Positions 32,863-47,680 of a DNA stretch of 53,342 nt are shown piece after piece. Numbering within the stretch: the stretch's first letter is position 1; the number at the start of each line of letters is the position of its first letter. The position numbers were made by a program, and so were the translations under genes. Origin of the DNA: Flavobacteriaceae bacterium (lineage in GTDB: Bacteria > Bacteroidota > Bacteroidia > Flavobacteriales > Flavobacteriaceae); NCBI GenBank assembly GCA_027081505.1, contig JALWKK010000054.1, forward strand, positions 1 through 53,342, read 5' to 3'. Below the pieces are notes generated by a model. It searched no databases. It had not been told where the DNA came from and saw only the letters and a program-made list of their open reading frames with translations.

Positions 32863-32909
32863 TATGTAACTTTTGTTACTATGTAACTCATGTTACATAA
32901 TTATATTTA
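32863..32909 (+). promoter_or_regulatory. Double Crp/Fnr-type operator and -7 box, unit A
   Basis: Two GTAAC-N4-GTTAC palindromes lie 17 bp apart. The first is at 32866-32879 (centre 32872.5). The second, at 32883-32896, has perfect 8-bp arms TATGTAAC/GTTACATA. A -7-like TATATTTA starts at 32902, 29.5 bp from the centre of the first site. The downstream genes are the YeeE pair and the molybdoenzyme. A second possible box, TATATTG at 32923, would fit the second palindrome less well (33.5 bp). Confidence 0.7.
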
Positions 32910-32966
32910 GCCCCGCTTTTTGTATATTGCAATAGGCAAGTATCACTAATCAATAAATTAACAACT

Positions 32967-33524
32967 GTGGAATTTTTTTTACAACCCTATCCTTGGTATG
33001 TAGCAGGACCACTCATAGCCTTGGTTACATTTTTTCTTTTCTATTTTGGAAAAAGACTTGGTATATCGTCTAATTTAGAAACATTTTGTGCCATAGGTGG
33101 CGCAGGTAAGCTAGTAGATTTTTTTAATTTTGACTGGAAAAAAAATTCTTGGAACTTACTATTTCTCTTAGGCACTATTATCGGAGGATTTATTACCTAC
33201 CAATACCTCACTCCTTCAGACACGGTAGAAATATCTCAAAAAACAGTACAAGACTTAACCGCTCTGGGTTTTAAAAATCCGGGAAAAAGCTATTTACCCA
33301 ATGAGATTTTTAGCGTAGAAACAATGCTCTCTGTAAAAGGATTTTTAATCCTTCTAATAGCCGGTATATTTATAGGCTTTGGCTCTCGCTATGCCGGAGG
33401 ATGCACCTCGGGGCATGCTATTGTAGGGCTTAGTAATTTAGAACTACCCTCTCTAATCTCTGTCATAGGATTTTTTATTGGCGGTCTTATTATGACGTGG
33501 CTCATCTTACCATTAATCTTTTAA
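32967..33524 (+). CDS. YeeE/YedE (TsuA-like) transporter, first half
   Basis: 185 residues with about five hydrophobic helices and the family motif GGCTSGHAIVGLSNL (conserved Cys in a membrane hairpin). YeeE/YedE (DUF395) proteins import thiosulfate; in E. coli TsuA one chain carries both halves, here they are two genes. Translation starts at GTG (32967); MEFFLQPYPWYVAGP is a sensible N-terminus and no ATG is nearby. The second half follows 8 bp downstream. Confidence 0.88.
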   Translation: MEFFLQPYPWYVAGPLIALVTFFLFYFGKRLGISSNLETFCAIGGAGKLVDFFNFDWKKNSWNLLFLLGTIIGGFITYQYLTPSDTVEISQKTVQDLTALGFKNPGKSYLPNEIFSVETMLSVKGFLILLIAGIFIGFGSRYAGGCTSGHAIVGLSNLELPSLISVIGFFIGGLIMTWLILPLIF

Positions 33525-33532
33525 CTTCTATT

Positions 33533-33946
33533 ATGAAAAACATAAAATTTTTAATTCTCGGTATTATCTTCGGAATTATTCTAAGTAAAGCAGAAGTTAT
33601 TTCTTGGTATCGTATTTACGAAATGTTTAAATTTCAATCTTTTCATATGTATGGTATCATTGGTTCGGCAGTAGTTGTAGGAATGATTATCTTTACTTTT
33701 TTTAGAAACGGAAAAATAAAAAACTTTCAAGGCGAAAAAATAATAGTAGCTCCAAAAAAGAAAGGATTTTATAGAAATATGCTTGGAGGAATTATCTTCG
33801 GGTTTGGTTGGGCATTGGCAGGTGCTTGCCCCGGACCTATGTTTATTCTTATAGGTAGAGGTGTTCTAACTATAGTTGTTGTTATTGTCGGAAGCATTTT
33901 AGGTGCATTTTTATACCATGCCTTTAAAAATAAATTACCACACTAA
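33533..33946 (+). CDS. YeeE/YedE (TsuA-like) transporter, second half
   Basis: 137 residues, four hydrophobic helices, with the second family motif GWALAGACPGPMFILIG containing the conserved Cys. It begins MKNIKFLILGIIFGII; a longer frame starts inside the previous gene and is not needed. Together with the preceding protein it would form a thiosulfate (sulfane sulfur) importer. This is the usual two-gene arrangement beside rhodanese/MBL genes in Bacteroidota. Confidence 0.87.
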   Translation: MKNIKFLILGIIFGIILSKAEVISWYRIYEMFKFQSFHMYGIIGSAVVVGMIIFTFFRNGKIKNFQGEKIIVAPKKKGFYRNMLGGIIFGFGWALAGACPGPMFILIGRGVLTIVVVIVGSILGAFLYHAFKNKLPH

Positions 33947-33962
33947 AAAATAAAATAAACAA

Positions 33963-35579
33963 ATGAGATACGGTTTTATTATTGATAATCGAAAATGTAT
34001 AGGGTGTCACGCTTGTACAACCGCTTGTAAATCGGAACACGATGTGCCTGTTGGGGTAAACAGAACCTATGTAAAGCAGGTTGAAAAAGGAGAATTCCCC
34101 AATACCCGAAGAATCTTTTCGGTAATGCGTTGTAACCATTGTACAGATGCTCCTTGTGTTACCATCTGTCCTGTTGAAGCTTTATATACTCGCGAAGATG
34201 GTATTGTAGATTTTGACAACAACCGTTGTATTGGCTGTAAATCGTGTATGCAAGCTTGTCCTTATGATGCTCTTTACATAGACCCGGACAACCATACCGC
34301 AGCAAAATGCAACTATTGTGCACACCGTATCGATGTTGGTAGAGAACCCGCTTGTGTAACAGTTTGCCCGGAACATGCCATTATTGCAGGTGATATGGAA
34401 AACCCAACGACCGAAATCTCTCAACTTCTTGCAAGACAGCAAGTAAAAGTTAGAAAACCCGAAAAAGGAACCAACCCCAACCTCTTCTATATCGATGGAG
34501 ACGAAGCATCTTTAAACCCCGAAGCAACCGATAAGTCCGGATCTTGGTTATGGAACTCTCAATCTCGAGGTGTTGGACACTACGCCAAAGCTGCCGAAAA
34601 AATGCTTCACACCAATGACGATATCGATTTGTTACAAATGACTATTGATAACGAATTACAAGCCGCTTACCAAAAAAAGGAAACCGAAAACCCAAATTAT
34701 ATCGACGTTTTAACCGGAAAAGCCAGAAGAGTTTACGATACGCCGGATAAAGGCATACTTTGGGGATGGGAAGTTTCAGCCTATGTAATGACCAAAGCCA
34801 TTGCAGCAGGAGCTTTTTTAATTCCGTTTATTGCTACGATTTTAGGTTACGAAATTTCAGACACCACCAAACTTTGGTCAGCAGGAATTTCATTAACATT
34901 CCTTGCATTAACCGGGTTGTTTCTAATAATGGATTTAGATAGACCGGATAGATTTCTCAATGTATTACTTCGCCCACAATGGAATTCGTGGTTAGTAAAA
35001 GGTGGATACACCATCACTATTTTCGGTCTTTTAGTAACCGTTTGGGGAGCTATGACTTATTTTGAAATACAAACAGGCGAAACCATTTTACTTTGGGCAA
35101 CTGCTTTCTTTGCTGTGATGCTTGCCATTTACACCGCATTTTTATTCGCACAAGCAAAAGGGCGTGATTTTTGGCAAAGTCCATCTTTAGCATTACATAT
35201 GCTAGTACATAGTGTCATGGCAGGAGCCGCTATTTTTGCTTTGGTATTACTCGTTGCAGGAAACGAAAATTGGATGTCAATATTAGCCACCGTTTTAATT
35301 ATTGCATTATCGGTAAATTTATTTACTATGATTACCGAATTAACAATGACACATCCAAGCACCGCTGCCGAAACGGTTGTAAAAATGATAACCAAAGGAA
35401 GATATAAAAACCTATTTTGGATAGGAACTGTTTTAATAGGTAATATCATTCCGCTATCACTATTGGTTTTTATGCCAAGTGCAACCATCTTAACCATTGC
35501 AGCTATTTTAGTATTGATAGGAATCTATGCCACCGAAAAAATTTGGGTAGAAGCGCCTCAAAGAATACCGATAGCGTAA
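33963..35579 (+). CDS. Fused 4Fe-4S/NrfD subunit (SoeB-SoeC-like)
   Basis: 538 residues joining two normally separate subunits. Residues 1-180 are a ferredoxin-type electron-transfer subunit with four Cys clusters: CIGCHACTTAC (Cys12-22), CNHCTDAPCVTICP, CIGCKSCMQAC and CNYCAHRIDVG...CVTVCP. After a linker, about residue 265 to the end is an eight-helix NrfD/PsrC-type membrane protein that reacts with quinone. The partner catalytic subunit is encoded after the four-helix remnant. In the proposed complex it passes electrons from sulfite to menaquinone. Confidence 0.9.
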   Translation: MRYGFIIDNRKCIGCHACTTACKSEHDVPVGVNRTYVKQVEKGEFPNTRRIFSVMRCNHCTDAPCVTICPVEALYTREDGIVDFDNNRCIGCKSCMQACPYDALYIDPDNHTAAKCNYCAHRIDVGREPACVTVCPEHAIIAGDMENPTTEISQLLARQQVKVRKPEKGTNPNLFYIDGDEASLNPEATDKSGSWLWNSQSRGVGHYAKAAEKMLHTNDDIDLLQMTIDNELQAAYQKKETENPNYIDVLTGKARRVYDTPDKGILWGWEVSAYVMTKAIAAGAFLIPFIATILGYEISDTTKLWSAGISLTFLALTGLFLIMDLDRPDRFLNVLLRPQWNSWLVKGGYTITIFGLLVTVWGAMTYFEIQTGETILLWATAFFAVMLAIYTAFLFAQAKGRDFWQSPSLALHMLVHSVMAGAAIFALVLLVAGNENWMSILATVLIIALSVNLFTMITELTMTHPSTAAETVVKMITKGRYKNLFWIGTVLIGNIIPLSLLVFMPSATILTIAAILVLIGIYATEKIWVEAPQRIPIA

Positions 35580-35593
35580 GAATGATGAATTCT

Positions 35594-36103
35594 GATTTTG
35601 GATATATGATTAGAATTCATTTTTAAAAATATAACAGTTGCTATAATGAAATACGAATTACAAAAACGAACAAAAAAGTTTGCTATAGATGCAATTAATA
35701 TTACTAAACAAACTGTTACCAAATAAATCCATCGGATGGACATTGACAAATCAAATAATACGTTCTGCAACTTCAGTTGGCGCAAATTATAGAGCCGTAT
35801 GTAGAGCAAAAAGTGATAAAGATTTTATTTCTAAAATGGAAACAGTAATTGAAAAAGCAGATGAAACACTTTTTTAGTTAGAAATAATAGAAGAATTAAA
35901 TGTAATAAAAAACGAAACTGAAATTACTCGATTATTAAAAGAAGCAGATGAATTAGTCGCAATTTTTGTAAGTTCAGTTAAAACAGTAAAAAACAGATTA
36001 AATAAGAATAAATAAGATTTCGGAAAATGAGAACAAACATAAATGGTAGAGCAATCATAAATCCAGAATCATAAATCCAAAATCATAAATCCAAAATCAA
36101 AAA
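35594..36103. mobile_element. Second four-helix-bundle element with inverted ends
   Basis: At the left, GATTTTGGATATATGATT (35594-35611) lies within an ATGAATTCT/AGAATTCAT hairpin. At the right, from 36053, three tandem 14-bp units AATCATAAATCCA(G/A) plus a partial unit run to the next start codon. The left copy is the reverse complement of the right unit junction AATCATAAATCCAAAATC with one mismatch. Between them is only a decayed four-helix-bundle gene. Layout is the same as at 16018-16480, with a different repeat sequence. Mobility is inference. Confidence 0.5.
35646..36015 (+). pseudogene. Decayed four-helix-bundle (S23/IVS-type) gene
   Basis: The first frame gives MKYELQKRTKKFAIDAINIT, then a frameshift near 35705 is required to continue with 'LLPNKSIGWTLTNQIIRSATSVGANYRA'. 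This is followed by 'ISKMETVIEKADETLF', a TAG at 35875-35877 and 'LEIIEELNVIKNETEITRLL' to a stop at 36015. The sequence SATSVGANYRA and 'ADETLFWLE' are family hallmarks; the TAG stands where relatives have the Trp codon TGG. Thus one frameshift and one nonsense mutation have inactivated it. It lies inside the molybdoenzyme operon, in the operon's direction. Confidence 0.85.
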
Positions 36104-38995
36104 ATGGGATATAAAAAACCGTCTTTTATCGAAAGTATTGCAGAAAAAACAGGAATTATACCAAATCTGCATAAAGAAAAATACCAAGAGTTTGACAAAG
36201 ATATGCGTCACTTTACCGATGAAGAAGTGGCACAGATGTATGAAAATTTCCCGCCTCCCGAAAAATGGGATAACTGGGTAGAATACAACCCGAAAGTATG
36301 GCCCAAAAAAGAAAAAGTAGAGTACCAAATAGTTCCTACTACCTGTTTTAATTGCGAAAGCGCTTGCGGACTTACCGCATTCATTAACAAGAAAACACAA
36401 AGAGTAGTAAAATTTGAAGGAAATCCCTATCACCCTGGAAGTCGTGGTAGAAATTGCGCCAAAGGACCAGCCACCATCAACCAAATTACCGACCCGGATA
36501 GAATCCTGTATCCGCTTAAGCGAAAAGGAAAAAGAGGTGATGGCGAATGGGAACGTATTACTTGGGACGAAGCACTGGACACCATTGCAGCTCGAATTAG
36601 AAAAGCCATAAAAGAAGACCGACATAACGAAATTGCCTACCACGTAGGACGCCCGGGACATGAAAAATTTATGAACTGGATTCTTCAAGGTTGGGGAATC
36701 GATGGACACAACTCTCATACTAACATCTGCTCTTCGGGAGCACGATTCGGTTACAATATTTGGTACGGTTATGACCGCCCGTCGCCAGACCACGCCAACG
36801 CAAAATTTATTCTTTTAGTTTCAGCTCACTTAGAATCGGGACATTATTTCAATCCTCACGCACAACGTATTATTGAAGGAAAAATGAAAGGAGCTAAATT
36901 GGCCACAATGGATCCTCGCCTTTCTAATACCGCCTCAATGAGTGACTATTGGTTACCCACTTATCCCGGAACCGAAGCAGCAGTTCTTCTAGCAATGGCT
37001 TTGATTATTTTAAAAGAAGGATTGTATAACCGAGATTATCTTGAAAATTGGACCAATTGGAAAGAATACCTCAAAGCAAGACACAGCGATAAAGAAGTTA
37101 CCTTTGAAAACTACATCGCTGCAATGATTGAGGAATACAAAGAATTTACACCTGAATATGCCGAAAAAGAATCGGGCGTAAAAGCCGAAACCATTGTAGA
37201 AATTGCAAGACAAATAGGCGAAGCAGGCGAACGTTTTGCATCGCATAATTGGCGTGCTGCAGGAGCTTCAAATCTCGGAGGCTGGGCAGTAGCCAGATGC
37301 TTACACTTTTTAACCGTGTTGGTAGGAGCAGTAGGAGCAAAAGGAGGAACTTCACCTAACTCATGGAATAAATTTAGCCCTACACAACCCAACCCGCCAA
37401 AACCTCAAAAAAAATGGAACGAACTCCATTTTCCAAAAGAATATCCATTAGCATTTTTTGAAATGAGTCAACTATTACCTCATTTCTTAAAAGAAGGAAG
37501 AGGAAAAATGGATGTCTATTTCTCAAGAGTTTTTAATCCGGTTTGGACCTATCCCGACGGATTTACTTGGATGGAAATGTTTCAAGACGAATCTAAATTT
37601 GGCTTACACGCCGCCTTGACACCAACCTGGAACGAAACAGCATTTTATGCCGATTTTGTGCTGCCAATGGGATTGGCTTCCGAACGACATGACATAAACA
37701 GTTATGCCACACACGGAGGTACGTGGGTAGCCTTTAGACAACCCGTTTTACGGGAAGCCGCTCGAAGAAACGGAAATCCCGTAGAATATACTTACCAAGC
37801 CAACCCGGGAGAAGTTTGGGAAGAAGATGAATTTTGGATCGAACTTTCGTGGCGAATAGACCCCGACGGAAGTATGGGTATCCGTAAACATTTTGAATCG
37901 CCATATCGTCCCGGACAAAAAATTACCATAGACGAATACTACCAATATATTTTTGAACGCGTACCCGGTTTGCCCGAAGCTGCAAAAAAAGAAGGAATTA
38001 CCGAACTTCAATACATGCAGAAATACGGTTGTTTTGAAATTGAAAAAGGCGAATCGTACAAGAAAAATGAAACCCCTTTAACCAAAGAACAATTAGAAGG
38101 AAGCACCATTGACCCAGAAACCGAAGTTATATATAAAAACGATAAAGCCATAGGTGTAATGGTTAATGGTAAAGCAGTAGTTGGTTTCCCAACACCATCT
38201 AGAAAAAACGAATTCTATTCGCAAACAATGGTAGATTGGAACTGGCCAGAATATGCCACCCCAAAATACATTAAAAGCCATATTCATTTAGATAACTTAG
38301 ACAAATCCAAAGGCGAATACGTTTTAGTACCGACATTTAGGTTGCCAACCTTGATTCATTCCCGTTCAGGAAACGCCAAATGGCTGGTTGAAATCTCAAA
38401 TAGAAACCCTATCTGGATGCACCCGGACGATGCTGCAAAATGGGGTTTTAAAACAGGCGATTTAGTAAAAATTAATACCGATATCGGCTATTTTATAGAT
38501 AAAGTTTGGGTAACGCAAGGAATGAAACCCGGAGTGGTAGCTTGTTCGCACCATATAGGAAGATGGCGAAGACCACAAGACAAAATTGGTAACCGTTGGG
38601 CAACCAATACCGTAAATATTGAAACAGACGGAAAAGGCGGTTGGAAAATGAATACCATTTCAGGAATAAAACCTTTTGAATCTGACGATAAAGACTCAAA
38701 ACGAATATTCTGGAAAGACGGTGGCGTACACCAAAACATTACCCACGCCGTACATCCCGACCCTATTAGTGGAATGCACTGTTGGCACCAACGAGTACGA
38801 ATTGAAAAACCCAAAGAAGGAGAAAAATACGGAGATATCTTTGTAGATACCAATAAGTCGCATGAAGTCTATAAAGAATGGCTTGCAATGACACGTCCTG
38901 CACCTGGTCCCGATGGGTTAAGAAGACCCCTTTGGTTTAAACGTGCATTTAAACCCGATGAATCTACCTACTACATTGATAAAAATAAAGAATAG
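36104..38995 (+). CDS. Molybdopterin oxidoreductase, SoeA-like
   Basis: 963 residues of the DMSO-reductase family. The N-terminal [4Fe-4S] site is C81-x2-C84-x3-C88 with C118 in GRNCAKGP. Molybdopterin-guanine-dinucleotide motifs include 'ICSSGARFGYNIW' and 'GAVGAKGGTSPNSW', and the C-terminal domain has 'WMHPDDAAKWGFKTGDLVKINT'. There is no twin-arginine signal, so the enzyme stays in the cytoplasm, as for sulfite dehydrogenase SoeA and unlike periplasmic PsrA/PhsA. With the fused SoeBC-like protein it would oxidise sulfite to sulfate. Polysulfide or thiosulfate reduction is the alternative. Confidence 0.88.
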   Translation: MGYKKPSFIESIAEKTGIIPNLHKEKYQEFDKDMRHFTDEEVAQMYENFPPPEKWDNWVEYNPKVWPKKEKVEYQIVPTTCFNCESACGLTAFINKKTQRVVKFEGNPYHPGSRGRNCAKGPATINQITDPDRILYPLKRKGKRGDGEWERITWDEALDTIAARIRKAIKEDRHNEIAYHVGRPGHEKFMNWILQGWGIDGHNSHTNICSSGARFGYNIWYGYDRPSPDHANAKFILLVSAHLESGHYFNPHAQRIIEGKMKGAKLATMDPRLSNTASMSDYWLPTYPGTEAAVLLAMALIILKEGLYNRDYLENWTNWKEYLKARHSDKEVTFENYIAAMIEEYKEFTPEYAEKESGVKAETIVEIARQIGEAGERFASHNWRAAGASNLGGWAVARCLHFLTVLVGAVGAKGGTSPNSWNKFSPTQPNPPKPQKKWNELHFPKEYPLAFFEMSQLLPHFLKEGRGKMDVYFSRVFNPVWTYPDGFTWMEMFQDESKFGLHAALTPTWNETAFYADFVLPMGLASERHDINSYATHGGTWVAFRQPVLREAARRNGNPVEYTYQANPGEVWEEDEFWIELSWRIDPDGSMGIRKHFESPYRPGQKITIDEYYQYIFERVPGLPEAAKKEGITELQYMQKYGCFEIEKGESYKKNETPLTKEQLEGSTIDPETEVIYKNDKAIGVMVNGKAVVGFPTPSRKNEFYSQTMVDWNWPEYATPKYIKSHIHLDNLDKSKGEYVLVPTFRLPTLIHSRSGNAKWLVEISNRNPIWMHPDDAAKWGFKTGDLVKINTDIGYFIDKVWVTQGMKPGVVACSHHIGRWRRPQDKIGNRWATNTVNIETDGKGGWKMNTISGIKPFESDDKDSKRIFWKDGGVHQNITHAVHPDPISGMHCWHQRVRIEKPKEGEKYGDIFVDTNKSHEVYKEWLAMTRPAPGPDGLRRPLWFKRAFKPDESTYYIDKNKE

Positions 38996-39005
38996 GCAAC
39001 TTTAT

Positions 39006-39041
39006 AAACCTACTAGGTTTTCAAAACCTAGTAGGTTTTTT
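39006..39041 (+). terminator. Terminator after the SoeA-like gene
   Basis: 15-bp arms AAACCTACTAGGTTT and AAACCTAGTAGGTTT with a 3-base loop, followed by Ts. It ends transcript A before the first SulP gene. Confidence 0.85.
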
Positions 39042-39101
39042 AACATTCATACCAAAAAGTCTTTAAAGACCAGTAAGAAACATAAAAAATTAATTGTATA
39101 A

Positions 39102-40817
39102 ATGTTACATAAAATATTCCCATTCCTCACTTGGTTGCCTCTAGCAAAACAATACTGGAAAAACGACTTAATTGCCGGAATAACCGGTACTATTATCGTA
39201 ATTCCTCAAGCTGTTGCTTTTGCTATGATTGCAGGGATGCCCCCTATTTATGGTTTTTATACAGCGATGCTTACACCTGTTATAGCTGCAATCTTCGGTT
39301 CTTCCTATCACTTGGTTTCCGGTCCTACAACCACTAGCTCTATTGTCTTATATGCTATCATTAGCAAGTTTGTAACTCCAAGTTCAGATATAGAAGCCTT
39401 TGTTTCGCTTGCCATTTTACTTTCATTTATGGCAGGAGTTATTAAACTTTTTATGGGAGTTGTAAAAATGGGAAAACTGGTAAACTTTGTTTCTAATTCT
39501 GTGATTATTGGTTTTTCGGCAGGTGCCGGAATTTTAATTGCTTTTAAACAATTAAAACATATTTTTGGAATTAAAGTTCCGCAAGGTTCTTCTTTTTATA
39601 AAATTATTGAATACATCATTCAACATATTCAAGAAACTAACTGGTATGCCTTTGCTGTTGCAATATCAACCCTTTTAATTGCACTACTGATAAGAAAAAT
39701 TAAAAAAATATCGAAATTATATATGTTAATAGCAATGATACTGGGTAGTTTAATTGCTATTTGGTTTGGTGGCACGAATCATGGTATTGAAACGGTGGGT
39801 AAAATTTCTTCAAATTTACCTCCGTTTAACCCGCCCGATTTCAGTTGGCAAAACATGAAAATGTTATCAAACGGTGCATTTATCCTAGCTATTTTGGGAT
39901 TGGTAGAAGCAGTGGCGATATCACGTTCAATTGCACTTAACACGCATCAAAAACTAAATACCAACCAAGAATTTGTATCTCAAGGAATATCTAATGTTGT
40001 TTCAAGTTTTTTCTCGTGCTATACAAGTTCTGCTTCCTTTACAAGATCGAGCATTAATTACCAAGCCGGCGCAAAAACACCAATGTCGGCTATAATTTCG
40101 GCATTAGGACTTATGTTGGTAGTATTATTATTTGCCGATTATGCTTCCTTTTTACCAAAACCCGCTATGGGAGGCATTATTTTATTGGTAGGATATAATT
40201 TAATAGATTTTAAACACATTAAAACCATTTTTAAAGCAAGTAAAAGAGAGGTTATTGTTTTTGCCGTAACACTTATAGGCACCTTGTTTTTAGAACTGGA
40301 AGAAGCGTTAGTTGCCGGTATTTTTATGGCGTTATTTTTCTATTTGGAAAAAACATCCAAACCTAATATTGCTGTTCTGGGTATAAATAAAGAAAGAAGA
40401 TTAATTAATGTTGTTCGAGATAGAGAAGCCAAATCGTGTTCGCAACTAAAAATAATAAGAATTGATGGCTCAATTTATTTCGGGGCGATTGAAACCATTT
40501 CTAATTTCTTTATTAAACTATATGAAGAAAATGAAGTGAAAACCCTACTAATCATTGCAAGCGGAATTAACTTTATAGATTTAGCAGGAGCCGAGTGGTT
40601 AACCAGTGAAGTAACGAAATGGCGTGAACGGGGCGGCGATGTGTACTTTGTCGGAATGAAAAAAGTAAGTCAAGAGGTTTTAAGTAAAGGTGAGTTTTTA
40701 GATAAAATAGGAGAAAATCATTTTTTTACAGATAAAAAAACCGCCATTAAAACCATACATAGCAAATTTAAAGATCCTTGTAAAACACCCGTATTTAAAG
40801 AGTGTATTAAGGCTTAG
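39102..40817 (+). CDS. SulP-family anion transporter 1
   Basis: 571 residues. 'DLIAGITGTIIVIPQAVAFAMIAGMPPIYGFYTAMLTP' is the SulP N-terminal signature, 'LVSGPTTTSSIVLYAI' the second. About 12 membrane segments are followed by a STAS domain from about residue 440 ('LKIIRIDGSIYFGAIETISN', 'LLIIASGINFIDLAGAEWL'). It likely carries sulfate or a related oxyanion, in keeping with sulfate as end product of this gene cluster; bicarbonate is possible. No Crp/Fnr-type palindrome precedes it. Its stop codon is covered by operator B of the next SulP gene. Confidence 0.9.
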   Translation: MLHKIFPFLTWLPLAKQYWKNDLIAGITGTIIVIPQAVAFAMIAGMPPIYGFYTAMLTPVIAAIFGSSYHLVSGPTTTSSIVLYAIISKFVTPSSDIEAFVSLAILLSFMAGVIKLFMGVVKMGKLVNFVSNSVIIGFSAGAGILIAFKQLKHIFGIKVPQGSSFYKIIEYIIQHIQETNWYAFAVAISTLLIALLIRKIKKISKLYMLIAMILGSLIAIWFGGTNHGIETVGKISSNLPPFNPPDFSWQNMKMLSNGAFILAILGLVEAVAISRSIALNTHQKLNTNQEFVSQGISNVVSSFFSCYTSSASFTRSSINYQAGAKTPMSAIISALGLMLVVLLFADYASFLPKPAMGGIILLVGYNLIDFKHIKTIFKASKREVIVFAVTLIGTLFLELEEALVAGIFMALFFYLEKTSKPNIAVLGINKERRLINVVRDREAKSCSQLKIIRIDGSIYFGAIETISNFFIKLYEENEVKTLLIIASGINFIDLAGAEWLTSEVTKWRERGGDVYFVGMKKVSQEVLSKGEFLDKIGENHFFTDKKTAIKTIHSKFKDPCKTPVFKECIKA

Positions 40818-40861
40818 TAACTAAAGTTACTAACCGATAGTAAAAATTGACGCTATCTTTG
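40814..40861 (+). promoter_or_regulatory. Crp/Fnr-type operator and -7 box, unit B
   Basis: TTAGTAAC-TAAA-GTTACTAA (40814-40833), perfect 8-bp arms, centre 40823.5. It overlaps the stop of SulP1. A perfect -7 box TATCTTTG starts at 40854, 30.5 bp from the centre, and no -33 TTG is present. This puts the site near -41.5, a class II activator position. Confidence 0.75.
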
Positions 40862-40885
40862 CACTACTTTAACAAATAGCCTTAT

Positions 40886-42619
40886 ATGAATATAAAGCAA
40901 TTTTTTCCGATTGTAGATTGGCTGCCTAACTATAAAAAAAAATGGCTTAAAGGCGATTTAAATGCCGGATTAACCGTTGGTATAATGCTCATCCCACAGG
41001 GCATTGCCTACGCTATGATTGCCGGACTACCTCCAATCTACGGTTTATATACCGCTATGATTCCGCCATTGGTTTATGCTGTTTTCGGAACCTCAAGACA
41101 ATTGGCAGTAGGACCTGTTGCAATGGACTCCTTAATTGTAGCAACAGGAGTGGCAACACTCGCAGACATTGGTACTGAAAACTTTGTTGAATTTGCTATT
41201 CTATTAGCAACTATGATGGGTATTTTGCAAATACTTTTTGGTGTATTGCGACTGGGATTTTTGGTTAATTTTTTATCAAAACCGGTTATAAGCGGGTTTA
41301 CATCTGCTGCTTCCTTAATCATCGGACTTAACCAATTAAAACATTTATTAGGAATTAACATAGAAAGAAACAACAAAATACAAAATTTGGTGATCGAAGC
41401 TGTTTCACATCTTAATGAAATAAACTGGATAACCACCACTATAGGAATAGGTTCTATTATTACCATTGTATTGCTAAAAAGATATTATAAAAAAATCCCC
41501 ACAGCTTTGGTTGTAGTAATTCTGGGAATTGTAGCAGTAAAATTATTTAATCTGGAACAATACGGCGTTAAAATTGTGGGAGAAATCCCCAAGGGATTAC
41601 CTGAGTTTAGAATGCCGGTTTTTGATAAAGAAGTAATGATAAAACTATTTCCTGTTTCATTAACACTTTCATTTATTGCTTTTCTTGAAGCCATTTCGGT
41701 TGCAAAAGCAATTGAAGTAAAACACAACAATTACAAAGTAATACCCAATCAAGAATTAATAGCCTTGGGTATGAGCAATTTTATAGGTTCTTTTTTTCAA
41801 ACCTATCCCGGAACAGGTGGCTTTTCAAGAACAGCAGTAAGCGATCAAGAAGGAGCAAACACACCATTGTTTGGTGTAATCTCTTCTATTATTTTAGGTC
41901 TTACACTCATGTTTTTAACTCCTTTATTCTATTATTTACCCAAAGCTGTTTTAGCTGCAATAATTATGGTGGCTGTATTTGGTTTATTAGATTTTAGAGT
42001 ACCAAAACAATTGCTTAAATACTCAAAAAGAGACTTAATAATACTAAACAGCACTCTTATTATTACCGCAACCATAGGAATTAAAGAAGGAATTATTACA
42101 GGTGTTATTCTATCATTAGGAATGTTAATTTATAAAACCACAAAGCCTCACGTTGCCATTCTTGGACAAGTGCCGGGAACGCATTTTTACCGAAACCGAA
42201 AACGTTTTAAAAATGTAGTAATAGAAGAAGATATTTTAATCGTACGATTTGATGCCCAACTTCATTTTGCAAACACCACTTATTTTAAAGATAAATTGCA
42301 AGAATTTGCCGAATATAAAGGAAACAAGCTCAAATTATTAATCATTGACGGCGAAAGTTTAAACAATTTAGACAGTAGTGCAGTTTACGCATTAGATGAA
42401 ATAATAAATTATTTTAATAACAAAAACGTTGATATTGTATTTACCGGTTTAAAAGGACCGGTGAGAGATACGCTTAAAAAATCCGGTCTTATTTATAAAA
42501 TTGGAGACGACAATTGCTTTATGAGTATTCAAGAAGCAGTAGATTGTTATAAGAATAACTGTATGAATAGACCAAATAAAATGAAATTTAAAGAGTATAT
42601 AAAACAGGTAAACGATTAG
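40886..42619 (+). CDS. SulP-family anion transporter 2
   Basis: 577 residues, paralogue of the preceding gene. The SulP motifs are 'DLNAGLTVGIMLIPQGIAYAMIAGLPPIYGLYTAM' and 'LAVGPVAMDSLIVATGVA'. A 12-segment membrane part and a C-terminal STAS domain ('ILIVRFDAQLHFANTTYFKD', 'LLIIDGESLNNLDSSAVYAL') follow. The two SulP proteins differ enough to have different substrates or directions. This copy has its own Crp/Fnr-type promoter. Confidence 0.9.
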   Translation: MNIKQFFPIVDWLPNYKKKWLKGDLNAGLTVGIMLIPQGIAYAMIAGLPPIYGLYTAMIPPLVYAVFGTSRQLAVGPVAMDSLIVATGVATLADIGTENFVEFAILLATMMGILQILFGVLRLGFLVNFLSKPVISGFTSAASLIIGLNQLKHLLGINIERNNKIQNLVIEAVSHLNEINWITTTIGIGSIITIVLLKRYYKKIPTALVVVILGIVAVKLFNLEQYGVKIVGEIPKGLPEFRMPVFDKEVMIKLFPVSLTLSFIAFLEAISVAKAIEVKHNNYKVIPNQELIALGMSNFIGSFFQTYPGTGGFSRTAVSDQEGANTPLFGVISSIILGLTLMFLTPLFYYLPKAVLAAIIMVAVFGLLDFRVPKQLLKYSKRDLIILNSTLIITATIGIKEGIITGVILSLGMLIYKTTKPHVAILGQVPGTHFYRNRKRFKNVVIEEDILIVRFDAQLHFANTTYFKDKLQEFAEYKGNKLKLLIIDGESLNNLDSSAVYALDEIINYFNNKNVDIVFTGLKGPVRDTLKKSGLIYKIGDDNCFMSIQEAVDCYKNNCMNRPNKMKFKEYIKQVND

Positions 42620-42662
42620 TAACAAATGTTACAAACTAATAGTAAAGGCTTTTATATATTTG
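42619..42662 (+). promoter_or_regulatory. Crp/Fnr-type operator and -7 box, unit C
   Basis: GTAAC-AAAT-GTTAC at 42619-42632, centre 42625.5, touching the stop codon of SulP2. A perfect TATATTTG starts at 42655, 29.5 bp from the centre. Confidence 0.72.
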
Positions 42663-42703
42663 GTTTTCAAAATTTTAAAAAATAACATTAAAATTATAAC
42701 ATT

Positions 42704-44128
42704 ATGAAAATTGAACAACTATTTACAGGATGCTTAGCAGAAATGGCTTATTACATTGAATCAAACGGAGAAGCCGCAATCGTAGATCCATTACGCGAAA
42801 CAGACCCTTATTTAAAAATGGCTGAAGCCGACGGTGCGAAGATAAAATACATCTTCTTAACTCATTTCCACGCCGATTTTGTTTCAGGACAAGTAGATTT
42901 GGCTAAAAAAACAGGAGCCAAAATTGTTTTTGGACCCAATGCTTCAGCCGAATATGATATTTATGTAGGAAAAGATAATGAAGAATTTCCGTTAGGAAAC
43001 ATTAAAATCAAACTGCTTCACACTCCCGGACACACTATGGAGTCCTCTTCCTATTTAATTTATGACGAAGAAGGAAATACCCCGTATGTACTTACCGGAG
43101 ATGCTTTATTTATTGGTGATGTAGGTCGTCCCGATCTAGCCGTAAAATCAGATTTAACACAAGCCGATTTAGCGGGTCATCTATATGATTCGTTACGAAA
43201 CAAAATCATGACTTTACCCGATGATATCATCATATATCCTAACCACGGTGCAGGTTCTGCCTGTGGAAAAAATATGAGTAGCGAAACATTTGACACATTA
43301 GGAAATCAAAAGAAAACCAACTATGCATTGCGTGCAGATATGACTAAAGAGGAATTTATTAAAGAAGTAACCGAAGGATTAAAAACACCACCCCAATATT
43401 TTCCGTTTAATGCAAAACTCAATAAGACCGGAACAGAAAAAACCTATGAAGAAATCGTTAAAACAGGAACTACACCCATTGATGCCGCTACTTTTAAAGA
43501 TTTAAGCGAACAAAAAGACATTATGGTTATAGATACACGATCTAAAGAATCCTATACCAAAACAGGAACTATTCCCGGTGCTTGGTGGATTGGTTTAGAC
43601 GGCAATTTTGCTCCTTGGGTTGGGGCTCTTATTGTAGATGTAACCCAAAAAGTAATTTTTATTGTTGACGACGAAGCAAAAGCCCATGAAGCGGTTACCC
43701 GTTTCTCGCGTATCGGTTTTGATAATACCTTAGGATACCTTGCCGGTGGAGGGGTTGCAGATTGGATAACAAATGGTTTTCCTTTAGATAAAATCGGCTC
43801 TATATCTGCAGCAGGGTTTGAAAAGAAATTTAATGCAGGTGAAGTAGAAGAAGTCTTGGACGTAAGAAAAGAATCTGAATACCTGTCACAACATATTAAA
43901 GGAATTAAAAATTTTCCGTTAGATTTTATAAAACAAAACTTTGCGGAGATTAATCCTAATAAAGAATATTATTTACATTGTGCAAGCGGGTATCGTTCTT
44001 TAATTGCCGCTTCTATTTTTAAAGCCAACGGTGTAGAAAAAGTGATTGATATTAGAGGCGGATTTAACGATTTGATCGAAACCGATTTACCCAAAACAGA
44101 TTACGTTTGCCCTACAACCTTGTTGTAA
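42704..44128 (+). CDS. CstB-like persulfide dioxygenase/rhodanese fusion 1
   Basis: 474 residues in three domains. Residues 1-245 are a metallo-beta-lactamase fold with THFHADFVSG, the second metal His in HTPGHTMES and the Asp in LTGDALFIGDVGRPDL, as in ETHE1-type persulfide dioxygenases. The Phe after HADx replaces the second-metal His, as in mononuclear Fe enzymes. Residues 270-365 are a rhodanese fold without the active Cys. Residues 375-474 are a rhodanese with Cys426 in YYLHCASGYRS. This is the layout of S. aureus CstB, which oxidises low-molecular-weight persulfide to sulfite and thiosulfate. It is a single-gene unit with its own operator and terminator. Confidence 0.9.
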   Translation: MKIEQLFTGCLAEMAYYIESNGEAAIVDPLRETDPYLKMAEADGAKIKYIFLTHFHADFVSGQVDLAKKTGAKIVFGPNASAEYDIYVGKDNEEFPLGNIKIKLLHTPGHTMESSSYLIYDEEGNTPYVLTGDALFIGDVGRPDLAVKSDLTQADLAGHLYDSLRNKIMTLPDDIIIYPNHGAGSACGKNMSSETFDTLGNQKKTNYALRADMTKEEFIKEVTEGLKTPPQYFPFNAKLNKTGTEKTYEEIVKTGTTPIDAATFKDLSEQKDIMVIDTRSKESYTKTGTIPGAWWIGLDGNFAPWVGALIVDVTQKVIFIVDDEAKAHEAVTRFSRIGFDNTLGYLAGGGVADWITNGFPLDKIGSISAAGFEKKFNAGEVEEVLDVRKESEYLSQHIKGIKNFPLDFIKQNFAEINPNKEYYLHCASGYRSLIAASIFKANGVEKVIDIRGGFNDLIETDLPKTDYVCPTTLL

Positions 44129-44151
44129 AATAAAACCGATTATAATAACTT

Positions 44152-44182
44152 AAAAAAAACGGGAAAACATCCCGTTTTTTTT
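44152..44182 (+). terminator. Terminator after CstB-like gene 1
   Basis: AAAAAAAACGGGA, 5-base loop, TCCCGTTTTTTTT. Confidence 0.9.
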
Positions 44183-44192
44183 GTAACCTACT

Positions 44193-44236
44193 GTAACTAT
44201 TGTTACTGTAAAATGTTGCCAATCACAATACATTTG
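44193..44236 (+). promoter_or_regulatory. Crp/Fnr-type operator and -7 box, unit D
   Basis: GTAAC-TATT-GTTAC at 44193-44206, centre 44199.5. A perfect TACATTTG starts at 44229, 29.5 bp from the centre. It drives the second CstB-like gene and the genes behind it. Confidence 0.75.
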
Positions 44237-44256: not shown

Positions 44257-45669
44257 ATGAAAGTAGAACAAATATATACCGGTTGTTTAGCGCACGCTGC
44301 TTATTATATTGAAAGTAACGGAGTAGCTGCTGTTGTAGATCCGCTTCGAGAAGTGCAACCTTATATTAATCGTGCAAAATTGGATGACGCAAAAATTAAA
44401 TATATTTTTGAAACACACTTTCATGCAGATTTTGTAAGCGGACATTTAGACCTTCAGAAAAAAACAGGAGCAACTATTGTTTATGGACCAACTGCAAAAC
44501 CCGGCTACGATGCTTATATTGCAAAAGACGACGAAATTTTTGAAGTGGGAGATTATAAAATTAAAGTAATACACACACCGGGACACACTATGGAAAGTAC
44601 TACCTACTTACTCATAGATGAAAATGATAAAGAACATGGTATTATAACAGGCGACACATTATTTATTGGCGATGTAGGACGACCCGATCTAGCGCAAAAA
44701 GTAGTAAAAGATTTAACCCAAGAAAAATTGGCAGGATACTTATACGACTCACTTCGCAATAAAATAATGCCACTCAGTGACGATTTAATTATATATCCTA
44801 ATCATGGAGCGGGTTCTGCCTGTGGAAAAAACATGAGTAGCGAAACTACCGATACTTTAGGACATCAAAAACAAGTAAATTATGCCCTAAATAAAGATTT
44901 ATCTAAAGAAGATTTTATTGAAGCTTTACTGGATGGACTTAAAGAACCACCCGGATATTTCCCGTCTAATGTAATGATGAATATAAATGGGTATCAAAGC
45001 TATGACGATGTAATTAAAAAAGGAAACACCGGTTTGTCCCCGGATGAATTTGAAGCTGTTGCAAACAAAACCGGAGCTGTTGTTCTAGATGTTAGACACC
45101 AACGCGATTACGCAAAAGGACATATTCCTCGTTCTATATTTATAGGATTAGATGGAGATTTCGCACCTTGGGTTGGTGCTCTTATTATAGATGTAAAACA
45201 ACCTATTCTGCTAATTGCCCCGGACGGAAGAATAGACGAGGCAATAACAAGATTATCCAGAGTAGGTTTTGATAATATAAAAGGATATTTAACCGGTGGT
45301 TTTGAAGCTTGGAAAAACGCTTCAAAAGAGTATGATAAAGTAACAGCAATTTATGCTATGGATTTTAAAAATATAATCGAAAAAGAAAACCCTGTAATTT
45401 ACGATGTAAGAAAAGAATCTGAATATAATACAGAACACGTACTCAATGCAAACCACTTGTGCCTAAGCACCTTGTCAAATCACATTGAAGATTTTCCCGG
45501 AGATAAAATCTTTTACTTACACTGTGCAGGAGGATACCGCTCAATGATAGCAGGATCGATTTTAAAAAGCAGAGGAATACATAACTTTATTGACGTAGAT
45601 GGTGGTTTTGAATCTATAAAAGAGGTAGGAATACCCGTAACAGAGTATGTTTGCCCATCAACACTATAA
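44257..45669 (+). CDS. CstB-like persulfide dioxygenase/rhodanese fusion 2
   Basis: 470 residues, same three-domain layout as the previous paralogue. The MBL metal motifs are THFHADFVSG, HTPGHTMES and ITGDTLFIGDVGRPDL. A middle rhodanese fold lacks Cys, and the C-terminal rhodanese has Cys423 in YLHCAGGYRS. N-termini of the two paralogues are nearly superimposable (KVEQIYTGCLAHAAYYIESN here, KIEQLFTGCLAEMAYYIESN there), indicating an old local duplication. It heads an operon with two small rhodaneses, an HMA protein, a haem lipoprotein, thioredoxin and a methyltransferase. Confidence 0.9.
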   Translation: MKVEQIYTGCLAHAAYYIESNGVAAVVDPLREVQPYINRAKLDDAKIKYIFETHFHADFVSGHLDLQKKTGATIVYGPTAKPGYDAYIAKDDEIFEVGDYKIKVIHTPGHTMESTTYLLIDENDKEHGIITGDTLFIGDVGRPDLAQKVVKDLTQEKLAGYLYDSLRNKIMPLSDDLIIYPNHGAGSACGKNMSSETTDTLGHQKQVNYALNKDLSKEDFIEALLDGLKEPPGYFPSNVMMNINGYQSYDDVIKKGNTGLSPDEFEAVANKTGAVVLDVRHQRDYAKGHIPRSIFIGLDGDFAPWVGALIIDVKQPILLIAPDGRIDEAITRLSRVGFDNIKGYLTGGFEAWKNASKEYDKVTAIYAMDFKNIIEKENPVIYDVRKESEYNTEHVLNANHLCLSTLSNHIEDFPGDKIFYLHCAGGYRSMIAGSILKSRGIHNFIDVDGGFESIKEVGIPVTEYVCPSTL

Positions 45670-45680
45670 AAAATATTAAA

Positions 45681-46019
45681 ATGAAAAATATAACAAACGA
45701 CGAATGGAGAAATTTGCTTGCAAACGACGAAAATGCCATAGTGATGGATGTTCGAACTCCAATGGAATGGGAAGAAGGAGTAATCAACACTAACGCCTTG
45801 TTAATAAACTTATTAGACACCCCTTCTTTCTTGAAAAAAGCACAAGAATTAGACAAAAACAAAAATTATTATGTCTATTGTCGAAGCGGAAGCCGAAGCG
45901 CACAAGCGTGCTACCTAATGGAAAGTTATGGAATTAAAACAACTTATAACTTGATGTATGGAATTATGGGCTGGGACGGAAAAGTTGTATTACCCCAAAA
46001 AGAAAAAGAAAAATTATAG
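45681..46019 (+). CDS. Single-domain rhodanese 1
   Basis: 112 residues with the rhodanese motifs VMDVRTPMEW and the active loop YCRSGSRS (Cys67). It moves sulfane sulfur between small thiols or proteins. It starts 11 bp after the CstB-like gene; a longer frame beginning inside that gene is not needed. The 4-residue loop after Cys (RSGSR) fits a sulfur-transferase rather than a Cdc25-type phosphatase. No signal peptide, so cytoplasmic. Confidence 0.9.
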   Translation: MKNITNDEWRNLLANDENAIVMDVRTPMEWEEGVINTNALLINLLDTPSFLKKAQELDKNKNYYVYCRSGSRSAQACYLMESYGIKTTYNLMYGIMGWDGKVVLPQKEKEKL

Positions 46020-46043
46020 AAACGTTTTATTGGTTGGTTAGTT

Positions 46044-46086
46044 AAGGAAGTGGTTTGTAGTTTATTACAGCTGCTTCCTTTCTTTT
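46044..46086 (+). terminator. Possible attenuating terminator
   Basis: AAGGAAG ... CTTCCTT with a long inner loop, then TCTTTT, in the 100-bp gap between the two small rhodanese genes. It may partly end the transcript. Confidence 0.4.
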
Positions 46087-46119
46087 AAAACATATCGTAA
46101 CAACAAAACAAAAAATATT

Positions 46120-46464
46120 ATGTCATTAATAAACTCATTATTTGGAATATTTACTCCTCAACCCAAAACGATAAAACGTATAGATGCCACATCGTTTAAG
46201 GAAAGCATACGCGGCAAAAAAGTACAACTCATAGATGTAAGAACACCTATGGAGTTTCAATCCGGGCATATAAAAAAGGCTAAAAACATTGATTACTATA
46301 ACAAAAGTAAATTTTATTCAGAAATTGAAAAATTGAATAAAGACAGCCCTGTTTATCTTTACTGCCGATCTGGAGTAAGAAGTTACAATGCAGCAAAAAA
46401 ACTCGATAAATTAGGATTTACAGAAATTTATGACCTAAAAGGTGGATTTTTAAGTTGGAAATAA
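46120..46464 (+). CDS. Single-domain rhodanese 2
   Basis: 114 residues. After about 20 N-terminal residues the rhodanese fold starts with 'LIDVRTPMEFQSGHI'; the active loop is YLYCRSGVRS (Cys82) and the end is 'LKGGFLSWK'. It resembles the GlpE/PspE-type single-domain sulfurtransferases. It is the second small rhodanese of this operon. Confidence 0.9.
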   Translation: MSLINSLFGIFTPQPKTIKRIDATSFKESIRGKKVQLIDVRTPMEFQSGHIKKAKNIDYYNKSKFYSEIEKLNKDSPVYLYCRSGVRSYNAAKKLDKLGFTEIYDLKGGFLSWK

Positions 46465-46487
46465 TAACTTTACATAAAAACATTTCT

Positions 46488-46757
46488 ATGAAAACAACTA
46501 TTACCATTCAAAATCTAAAATGTGGCGGATGTGCGCATACCATCACTACAAAATTAAATCTACTTACCGGAATAGATAATGTTTCGGTTGATGTAGAAAC
46601 AAGTACTGTATCTTTTGGTTACGCATCAGACAACGATTACAAAGAAGCCGTTAAAAAACTCGCTTCATTAGGCTACCCTAAAGAAGGATACAACAATAAT
46701 GTAATTGCAAAAGCCAAATCGTTTGTAAGCTGTGCTTCAGGAAAAATGAATAATTAA
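46488..46757 (+). CDS. HMA-domain (CopZ-like) metal-binding protein
   Basis: 89 residues with an HMA fold: beta strand, then KCGGCAHTI (Cys12, Cys15), and 'DVETSTVSFGYAS'. It would bind a soft metal such as Cu(I). The C-terminus has an extra Cys (FVSCASGK). I start at the second ATG (46488), which gives the normal MKTTITIQNLKC beginning, 23 bp after the rhodanese stop; a longer frame overlaps the previous gene. Metal transport is not otherwise represented here, so it may instead buffer copper against sulfane sulfur. Confidence 0.85.
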   Translation: MKTTITIQNLKCGGCAHTITTKLNLLTGIDNVSVDVETSTVSFGYASDNDYKEAVKKLASLGYPKEGYNNNVIAKAKSFVSCASGKMNN

Positions 46758-46770
46758 CACGATATAAAAA

Positions 46771-47376
46771 ATGAAAAAAATTTGGCTGTTTATTTTTATC
46801 GGATTGTTGTTTAGTTGTAAAAACGAAACTTCTAATAAAAAATCAGTTACTCCAAAAGAAACTGATGCATCTTCTGTTAAACAAAAACAAAAAGACTATA
46901 ATAAAATAGGCTTAGAGATTGCTTTTGGCACAAAAAAACAACTGGGAAAAAACCTCATAAGTCAACTTAATAAAAAAGGTACTCTTGATGCGCTATCTTT
47001 TTGTAACGTTAAAGCCATCCCGCTTACAGATAGCATGCAAACCGTTTATCAAGCAAAGATCAAACGCGTATCAGACAAAAACCGAAATCCAAACAACAAA
47101 GCAAACGATAATGAAATAACATATATAAACCAATTTAAAGAAGTAGTTAAAAAAGGTGAGAAACCTCAACCTATTATTAAAAGAACCCAAGACAGTGTTT
47201 ATTTTTATTACCCAATTATTACCAACGGAATGTGTTTGCAATGTCACGGAAAACCAAACAAAAACATAAAACCCGAAACCTTAAAACTCCTCCATAATCT
47301 CTATCCTAACGATAAAGCAACGGGATATGATGAAAATCAAGTACGAGGAATATGGAGTATTCAAATAAAAAAATAA
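46771..47376 (+). CDS. DUF3365 haem-binding lipoprotein
   Basis: 201 residues with a lipoprotein signal (FIGLLFSCKNE). The DUF3365 (Tll0287-like) domain is marked by 'SFCNVKAIPLTDSM', 'IKRVSDKNRNPNNKAN' and a c-type haem site CLQCH (Cys155, Cys158, His159). It would be exported and carry one covalently bound haem, so it could act as redox sensor or electron carrier in the envelope. Partners are unknown. Confidence 0.85.
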   Translation: MKKIWLFIFIGLLFSCKNETSNKKSVTPKETDASSVKQKQKDYNKIGLEIAFGTKKQLGKNLISQLNKKGTLDALSFCNVKAIPLTDSMQTVYQAKIKRVSDKNRNPNNKANDNEITYINQFKEVVKKGEKPQPIIKRTQDSVYFYYPIITNGMCLQCHGKPNKNIKPETLKLLHNLYPNDKATGYDENQVRGIWSIQIKK

Positions 47377-47383
47377 TATAATT

Positions 47384-47680
47384 ATGAGTCGTTTTTCAGA
47401 AATTATTAAAAGTAATAAACCCGTGTTAATTGATTTTTACGCAGACTGGTGTGGTCCCTGTAAAATGATGGCTCCCATTTTAAAACAAGTAAAAGACACC
47501 TTAGGAGATAGGGTAAAAATATTAAAAATTGATGTAGATAAAAATCAGCGACTTGCTGCTGCACAAAATGTACGAGGAGTCCCTACATTGGTTTTGTTTA
47601 AAAACGGAAGACAACTTTGGCGACAATCTGGCGTAGTACAAGCACAAGACATTATTTCTATTATTAACCAACATTTATAA
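47384..47680 (+). CDS. Thioredoxin
   Basis: 98 residues, cytoplasmic, active site WCGPCKM (Cys23, Cys26) and the cis-Pro loop GVPTLVLF. It probably reduces the rhodanese and CstB-like persulfides in this operon. It overlaps the next start by one base (TAATG). Confidence 0.94.
   Translation: MSRFSEIIKSNKPVLIDFYADWCGPCKMMAPILKQVKDTLGDRVKILKIDVDKNQRLAAAQNVRGVPTLVLFKNGRQLWRQSGVVQAQDIISIINQHL

Follow-up and report, generated by a model that had tools for sequence, protein, structure and literature searches.

The window analyzed here is a complete stretch of 53,342 nucleotides from a Flavobacteriaceae bacterium (assembly GCA_027081505.1, contig JALWKK010000054.1, positions 1 to 53,342 of the forward strand). 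It carries a group of sulfur genes whose promoters share the palindrome GTAACNNNNGTTAC (GTAAC-N4-GTTAC). Perfect copies occurred five times in the window, at 32866, 32883, 40817, 42619, and 44193, and no copy with one mismatch was present across its full length. Shuffled windows, with up to one mismatch allowed, contained a mean of 1.45 palindromes, and five or more were reached in 1 of 100 shuffles. The initial annotation had described palindromes at four sulfur-gene promoters, designated A to D in the following, and all four proved perfect by pattern scan as well as by reading of the sequence. Its distances of 29.5, 30.5, 29.5, and 29.5 base pairs (bp) between the palindrome centers of A, B, C, and D and the start of a TAnnTTTG-type -7 box were reproduced on re-reading. 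The lack of a TTG at -33 in promoters B, C, and D was confirmed; promoter D has a CTG that ends at -33. A second palindrome at promoter A, arranged in tandem with the first (32883-32896), had been overlooked. The predicted operators and their boxes are the following:

32866..32879, no strand, predicted operator A1, GTAAC-TTTT-GTTAC; center 29.5 bp before box A, predicted position -41.5
32883..32896, no strand, predicted operator A2, GTAAC-TCAT-GTTAC; tandem copy, center 17 bp downstream of A1, predicted position -24.5
32902..32909, + strand, -7 box of promoter A, TATATTTA; one base off TAnnTTTG
40817..40830, no strand, predicted operator B, GTAAC-TAAA-GTTAC; center 30.5 bp before box B
40854..40861, + strand, -7 box of promoter B, TATCTTTG; from sequence reading
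42619..42632, no strand, predicted operator C, GTAAC-AAAT-GTTAC; center 29.5 bp before box C
42655..42662, + strand, -7 box of promoter C, TATATTTG; from sequence reading
44193..44206, no strand, predicted operator D, GTAAC-TATT-GTTAC; center 29.5 bp before box D
44229..44236, + strand, -7 box of promoter D, TACATTTG; from sequence reading

The genes behind these promoters were called with Pfam and NCBIfam, and the calls in the window matched the earlier assignments in outline:

32967..38995, + strand, target operon A, whole (Pfam/NCBIfam)
32967-33524, + strand, YeeE-type half, operon A (Pfam/NCBIfam)
33497-33946, + strand, DUF6691/YeeE half, operon A (Pfam/NCBIfam)
33963-35579, + strand, iron-sulfur (FeS)-NrfD fusion, SoeBC-like, operon A (Pfam/NCBIfam)
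36104-38995, + strand, molybdopterin enzyme, SoeA-like, operon A (Pfam/NCBIfam)
40886..42619, + strand, target B, SulP family permease with STAS domain (Pfam/NCBIfam)
42704..44128, + strand, target C, CstB-like protein with metallo-beta-lactamase fold and rhodanese (Pfam/NCBIfam)
44257..48261, + strand, target D and the genes behind it (gene calls)
44257-45669, + strand, CstB-like, target D
45651-46019 and 46120-46464, + strand, rhodaneses behind the target D CstB-like gene
46771-47376, + strand, Tll0287-like, target D stretch
47384-47680, + strand, thioredoxin, target D stretch
47680-48261, + strand, TPMT, target D stretch

The Soe identity of the operon A enzymes is a putative label taken over from the initial annotation. 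Judged from the gene spacing, the target D stretch (44257-48261) would form one transcript. The first SulP gene of the pair (39102-40817) has no operator, and upstream of it only a terminator-like hairpin was seen.

In the source genome (2.12 Mb, 78.8% complete), nine perfect palindromes were counted compared with three for a reversed-pattern control, and five of the nine fell inside the window (binomial p about 1e-6). The composite of palindrome and box, separated by a gap of 22 or 23, was found at six places and at none in the control. With every palindrome scored in both directions, the chance that 5 or more of 18 orientations would have a perfect box at exactly gap 22 is about 3e-12. Three of the four palindromes outside the window have a TAnnTTTG start exactly 29.5 bp from the center. 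They precede DUF983-crp (box TACCTTTG), cydA (box TAATTTTG), and a DUF2202 gene (box TAAATTTG), and the fourth sits within a gene that we take to be GldM-like. With the gap fixed and up to two mismatches allowed, 17 places were obtained versus 3 in the control. Five places had one mismatch. One of them has no gene near it; of the others, one is promoter A, two belong to a TolC and an OsmC gene, and one lies in a gap within a nos gene cluster. One-mismatch palindromes carried no information when the box was not required (109 versus 94 in the control).

The spacing between palindrome and box is also a property of related genomes. The composite pattern was present in 40 of 99 genomes, the source included, at a total of 89 places, and the reversed control matched none of the 99. 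In a survey of 395 genomes of the phylum, in which any gap from 7 to 37 was accepted (31 gaps), the 97 genomes of the class (source excluded) gave 102 palindrome-box pairs; 67 were at gap 22 and 6 at gap 23, and the remaining 29 were scattered over 21 gaps with at most 4 at any one. If shared ancestry is ignored, a single gap out of 31 would collect 67 of the 102 pairs with a binomial probability of about 1e-73. The reversed control gave about 45 pairs over the 31 gaps in the same class genomes, or about 1.5 per gap. Outside the class, 22 pairs formed no peak, with gap 22 represented once and gap 23 three times. A set of 80 named loci, which were found by the peptide patterns SRVV[VI]SRLLK and CAMT[LIF][STA]CC, gave gap 22 in 100 pairs and gap 23 in 2; no other gap was seen more than twice. 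A perfect box stood at gap 22 from 173 palindrome orientations in 146 loci. Among a further 410 orientations lacking a perfect box, one-mismatch boxes numbered 98 at gap 22 versus 1-11 at each of 14 neighboring gaps.

According to a start-site map of F. psychrophilum (PMC9723704), the TAnnTTTG box spans -12 to -5. As the palindrome center lies 29.5 bp before this box, it falls at -41.5, the class II position. Transcription in the window is accordingly predicted to start near 32914, 40866, 42667, and 44241, each 12 bp past the first base of the box. The class II placement near -41.5 put forward in the initial annotation therefore agrees with that box position and with the spacing counts in relatives, in which the operator center keeps a constant distance from the core promoter. 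Site B, with its spacing of 30.5 bp, corresponds to -42.5, and near-identical copies of promoter B in two congeners, G005 and G003, have retained gap 23. The sequence profile also showed T in 77% of cases at -49; at -34 and -33, T (62%) and G (58%) prevailed, which indicates that a partial -33 element is common. A-rich positions followed from +1 onward, and start codons were mostly 14-30 bp past the box.

At promoter A, operator A1 was followed by TATATTTA at gap 22 in eight of the nine congener genomes for which the YeeE promoter was at hand. A different candidate box, TATATTGC near 32924, agrees with the SM5 variant of PMC9723704. It was set aside because the congeners keep TATATTTA at gap 22 from the first palindrome. 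Operator A2 is perfect in the source, in L052, and in L216 from another genus; it is one base off in L056, L058, L053, and L054 and decayed in L055, L057, and L059. As A2 overlaps the core promoter, it perhaps serves in feedback or blocking.

Which genes may be controlled was assessed from the first genes behind the sites, named partly by Pfam and otherwise by eye. At the 89 sites in 40 genomes, these were CstB-like or rhodanese genes (23), TolC (13), DUF983 (11), SulP (8), TauE (8), and SQR-like genes (3). Cytochrome/Tll0287-type, thioredoxin-like, HMA, DsrE-like, DUF2202, fatty-acid hydroxylase, and CydA genes occurred twice each, and YeeE, Crp, multicopper-oxidase-like, cyclase-like, and one unmatched gene once each. 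Four of the 89 sites had no callable first gene, two of these at contig ends. The 102 sites in the 80 named loci preceded TauE (38), CstB (28), DUF983 (13), rhodanese (4), cytochrome/Tll0287-type (4), SulP (4), TolC (3), Crp (2), and fatty-acid hydroxylase (1) genes, with five unassigned. A sample chosen independently of crp, made up of a subset of the spacing-survey loci and two G361 regions, comprised 27 rows (two flagged for overlap with an open reading frame) and 25 distinct places at gap 22 or 23. By distinct place it yielded CstB (6), TolC (4), TauE (3), DUF3365, HMA, SulP, and SQR (1 each), and eight unmatched genes, five of which were assigned by Pfam to hcp (Prismane), DUF2492, TauE, a redoxin, and a YgaP-like membrane protein. 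The initial annotation had named many equally spaced hits before unrelated genes or inside genes as evidence that would count against it. What was found were few, mostly sulfur-related families, with 3 of the 89 sites flagged as overlapping an open reading frame. Its claim that one sulfur regulon is served by a defined operator was supported by the comparative data, and the set of members had to be widened to the crp operon, cydA, DUF2202, the one-mismatch TolC site, and many other genomes. Operator and regulon are nearly certain, and the finding reaches across a whole family. The target list recurs in Maribacter, Zobellia, Aquimarina, Olleya, and other named marine genera.

The initial annotation had referred regulation to the Crp/Fnr proteins of the genome in general. 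Only two proteins with a cyclic nucleotide-binding domain were found in the 78.8% complete genome, and the choice was narrowed to one of them. This candidate is encoded behind DUF983 outside the window (G000:C85:26.8-27.9 kb), and the DUF983-crp operon itself carries the operator. It passed the cut-offs of PF00027 and PF13545 and thus combines the cyclic nucleotide-binding fold with the Crp-type helix-turn-helix of the Crp/Fnr family; at least 575 relatives are encoded. The second protein has N-terminal cysteines (CESC) and the helix TATESCIR, and its neighbors, as judged by eye, are genes for a copper ATPase and an oxidase-like protein. It was set aside as FNR-like with a different helix.

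The candidate and the operator occur together. With a match of at least 200 bits taken as presence of the Crp, perfect composite sites were found in 39 of 54 genomes with the protein versus 1 of 45 without it, and within the genus in 13 of 13 versus 0 of 6; G003 was scored positive because a contig end encodes 22 residues identical to the protein, and all such counts ignore shared ancestry. When 80 of the 97 class genomes were taken as a second sample, sites were present in 26 of 29 genomes with the Crp and 8 of 51 without it, and two of these eight have their sites before hcp or DUF2492. The two are also neighbors. In the 80 named loci, inspected up to 6 kb on each side, 77 had a site whose box deviated at no more than one base, 60 a site within 300 bp behind crp, and 25 a site within 700 bp before it. 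The order DUF983-crp-[site]-YeeE-DUF6691-SoeBC-SoeA, seen in four congener loci (L176, L177, L179, and L186), connects the regulator with the operon behind promoter A. The C85 Crp is very probably the regulator that uses the operator.

Its recognition helix reads SRVV(I/V)SR. As the named loci had been found by helix and cysteine patterns, conservation was counted on 75 proteins (own protein included), which came from the best-scoring loci of whole-protein searches and represent closer relatives. Valine occupied the place of CRP Glu181 in 72 of the 75 and glutamate in three. The cysteine triad C77, C83, and C84 was complete in 70, and 62 of these have exactly three cysteines. In a wider set of 139 proteins, the named loci included, 124 combined the triad with valine; 11 had glutamate, and 9 of the 11 lacked both later cysteines. 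Alignment to Vfr places C77, C83, and C84 in the cyclic-nucleotide cassette. The residues through which CRP contacts cyclic AMP (cAMP) served for comparison and were not retained in the candidate, in which the cassette aligned to the FFGEL region of Vfr reads TCA-MTL and valine takes the place of Glu181. The candidate scored 58.4 bits versus the NCBIfam CRP cut-off of 266. A cysteine cluster of the FNR type is absent from the N terminus, since its own sequence has no cysteine before residue 77.

The operator, its fixed spacing, the target set, the co-occurrence with and adjacency to crp, and the conserved helix are computational observations. They point to one Crp/Fnr protein acting as class II activator of a regulon for sulfide and persulfide as well as thiosulfate and sulfite through GTAAC-N4-GTTAC, a reading to which we assign a probability of roughly 0.85. 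GTAAC-N4-GTTAC would be the operator of one dimer of the protein from the DUF983-crp operon. In its active form, the dimer is predicted to bind at -41.5 and to touch RNA polymerase, which would thereby be recruited to promoters with a good -7 box but no full -33 element, as in class II activation. The genes switched on in this way would comprise YeeE-DUF6691-SoeBC-SoeA-like, SulP, CstB-like persulfide dioxygenases with rhodaneses, TauE, SQR-like, cytochrome bd, TolC-RND, and crp itself. That the protein activates rather than represses is, on the promoter geometry, quite probable. Because the conserved triad falls in the cyclic-nucleotide cassette, we propose thiol sensing of sulfane sulfur: sulfane sulfur, or a different thiol-reactive signal, might modify C77, C83, and C84, at the place where CRP holds cAMP, and so activate the protein. 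We consider the chances even that the triad senses sulfane sulfur. The same balance applies to the fullest form of the proposal, a dedicated class II activator of Bacteroidota in which the cAMP pocket has turned into a three-cysteine persulfide sensor and which combines the HcpR2 operator word, feedback through the dual operator at soe, and inclusion of TolC-RND and cytochrome bd in the regulon.

Several observations weigh against an activator of this kind. Of the 54 genomes that have a strong Crp match, 15 lacked a perfect site. Among the 14 of these 15 for which the crp region was inspected, six had palindromes with one or two mismatches at gap 22 beside crp and eight had no sites. Conversely, sites occurred without a Crp of at least 200 bits in G028 and, besides the genomes with hcp or DUF2492 sites, in six class genomes (G373 reaching 192 bits), and G072 has a perfect site before YeeE while its closest Crp carries SREVISR. 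In G007, no palindrome lies within 125 bp before YeeE. In the source genome, crp lies apart from the sulfur cluster, and the one-mismatch place at C72:23410 has no gene close behind it. Among the 75 relatives, 5 lack the full triad. The TolC-RND, DUF2202, and fatty-acid hydroxylase targets have no obvious sulfur role. Finally, the same operator at the same spacing precedes hcp in G331, a distant genome from another family, so the word alone is no proof of a sulfur regulon.

This last point bears on the possibility that an HcpR-type protein, sensing heme or nitric oxide, controls the genes in nitrosative stress. Cytochrome bd would suit nitric oxide tolerance, and gap-22 sites stand before hcp in G331 and before DUF2492 in G323, neither of which has a match to the sulfur Crp. 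The HcpR2 consensus given by Rodionov 2005 (PMC1274295), GTAACnnnnGTTAC, is identical to the operator described here and was reported upstream of hcp, Bacteroides included. The HcpR of B. thetaiotaomicron binds heme (PMC13370916). However, HcpR2 targets hcp, whereas the operator here precedes sulfur genes and the 79% complete source genome has no match to the Prismane family (hcp). None of the 85 callable first genes at the 89 sites was read as hcp, and 97 of the 102 first genes in the named loci belong to other families. The helix SRVV(I/V)SR is unlike that of the Pro-type HcpR2 of PMC1274295, which has proline at the place of CRP Glu181. Among the 60 PDB matches listed for the Crp profile, no chain labeled HcpR was present, with unlabeled Crp/Fnr chains at E above 0.01. 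HcpR was rejected as the regulator in the source genome on the lack of an hcp match and of an HcpR-labeled chain among these matches, and control of the sulfur genes by such a protein is very unlikely. In family f25 genomes, it is likely that HcpR owns the operator before hcp and DUF2492. The two sites concerned, L147 (G331, hcp) and L148 (G323, DUF2492), are gap-22 operators in genomes without the sulfur Crp, and one geometry thus seems to serve two regulators in the phylum.

A more serious competitor, though still a doubtful one, is that the same Crp senses redox state, low oxygen, or another ligand for example by way of a disulfide or metal centre, with the sulfur genes responding since hypoxia accompanies sulfide. 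Some Crp/Fnr relatives have thiol or Fe-S switches, cydA is a target, and the nos cluster has a one-mismatch site, but persulfide and sulfite enzymes and transporters make up most of the targets, and the genome has the separate FNR-like protein beside what appear by eye to be copper ATPase and oxidase-like genes. A repressor that blocks polymerase until sulfide arrives would match most known persulfide sensors, which repress, and operator A2 at -24.5 would block. Nevertheless, one exact spacing throughout the class is expected for polymerase contact and not for blocking, and the promoters lack a full -33 element, which leaves repression improbable. Chance, or an ancestral promoter copied along with duplicated genes, could be invoked for the two window sites that precede related CstB-like genes. 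The target families are unrelated, however, the stretches between palindrome and box vary between targets, and the reversed control matched 0 of 99 genomes. An origin of the sites by chance is ruled out by the reversed-pattern controls and the spacing spectrum, and we regard this explanation as a whole as negligible.

To our knowledge, few activator-operator systems have been mapped in Bacteroidota. The nearest solved structures to the candidate are 3dv8, followed by NtcA, CRP, and Vfr. PDB entry 3dv8, a Crp/Fnr-family protein, is the best match (profile E 3e-21), and two of the three cysteines align. NtcA of cyanobacteria is a class II activator that binds at -41.5 to a GTA-N8-TAC core and regulates nitrogen metabolism via 2-oxoglutarate. 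GTAAC-N4-GTTAC fits this core; we know of no cysteine triad in NtcA. CstR, BigR, SqrR, and FisR belong to the CsoR, ArsR, and sigma-54 activator families. They likewise control genes for detoxification of sulfide and persulfide, but they are proteins of other families than the Crp/Fnr candidate. A Crp-like protein of Acinetobacter baumannii is highly persulfidated under sulfide and has a conserved cysteine described as opposite the ligand pocket; it is close to E. coli Crp and Vfr, and that source states the effect of persulfidation as unknown (PMC7315123). The palindrome word has been published as the HcpR2 motif, and the sulfur regulon, its regulator, and the architecture appear new: no report of a Crp-type sulfur regulator or operator motif in Bacteroidota was found in the titles and abstract openings of open-licence papers, and a term search of PMC8510549, PMC12531629, and PMC12937710 gave nothing on the operator or the clade.

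A short palindrome at an exact promoter distance before many sulfur-handling genes, in most cases together with a Crp-like regulator that has three conserved cysteines, points to a sulfur-response regulon in marine Bacteroidota. Operator and spacing rule are exact, the system further offers a named candidate protein, a recurring target list, and three candidate residues, and the operator and spacing rule can be used to annotate the many genomes that encode the relatives. If the sensor reading is true, it would explain how sulfide and thiosulfate handling is switched on, add a protein family to bacterial persulfide sensing, and provide an activating counterpart to the repressor sensors CstR, BigR, and SqrR.

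Some further observations concern individual loci. The degenerate sites at L273, L274, L275, L277, L278, and L286 have GTCAC, ATTAC, or ATCAC as right half or an altered left half, and the helix beside them is still SRVV(I/V)SR. A paralogous Crp with the helix SREVISR and one of the three cysteines was located in sulfur clusters at L109, L107, L113, L123, and L112 as well as at L178, L197, and L214. The DUF2202 gene stands under the operator in two congeners (L009:1572-2198 and L110), and in the source genome a gene that looks TetR-like by eye comes next. The TolC gene is recurrent (13 of the 89 sites), for example at L265 (G000:C72:36688); at L251:6701-12613 it is followed by genes for membrane-fusion and RND pump proteins. 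The site in the nos cluster, L262 (G000:C69:4410), has one mismatch and the right spacing and lies between a nosZ-like gene and nosL.

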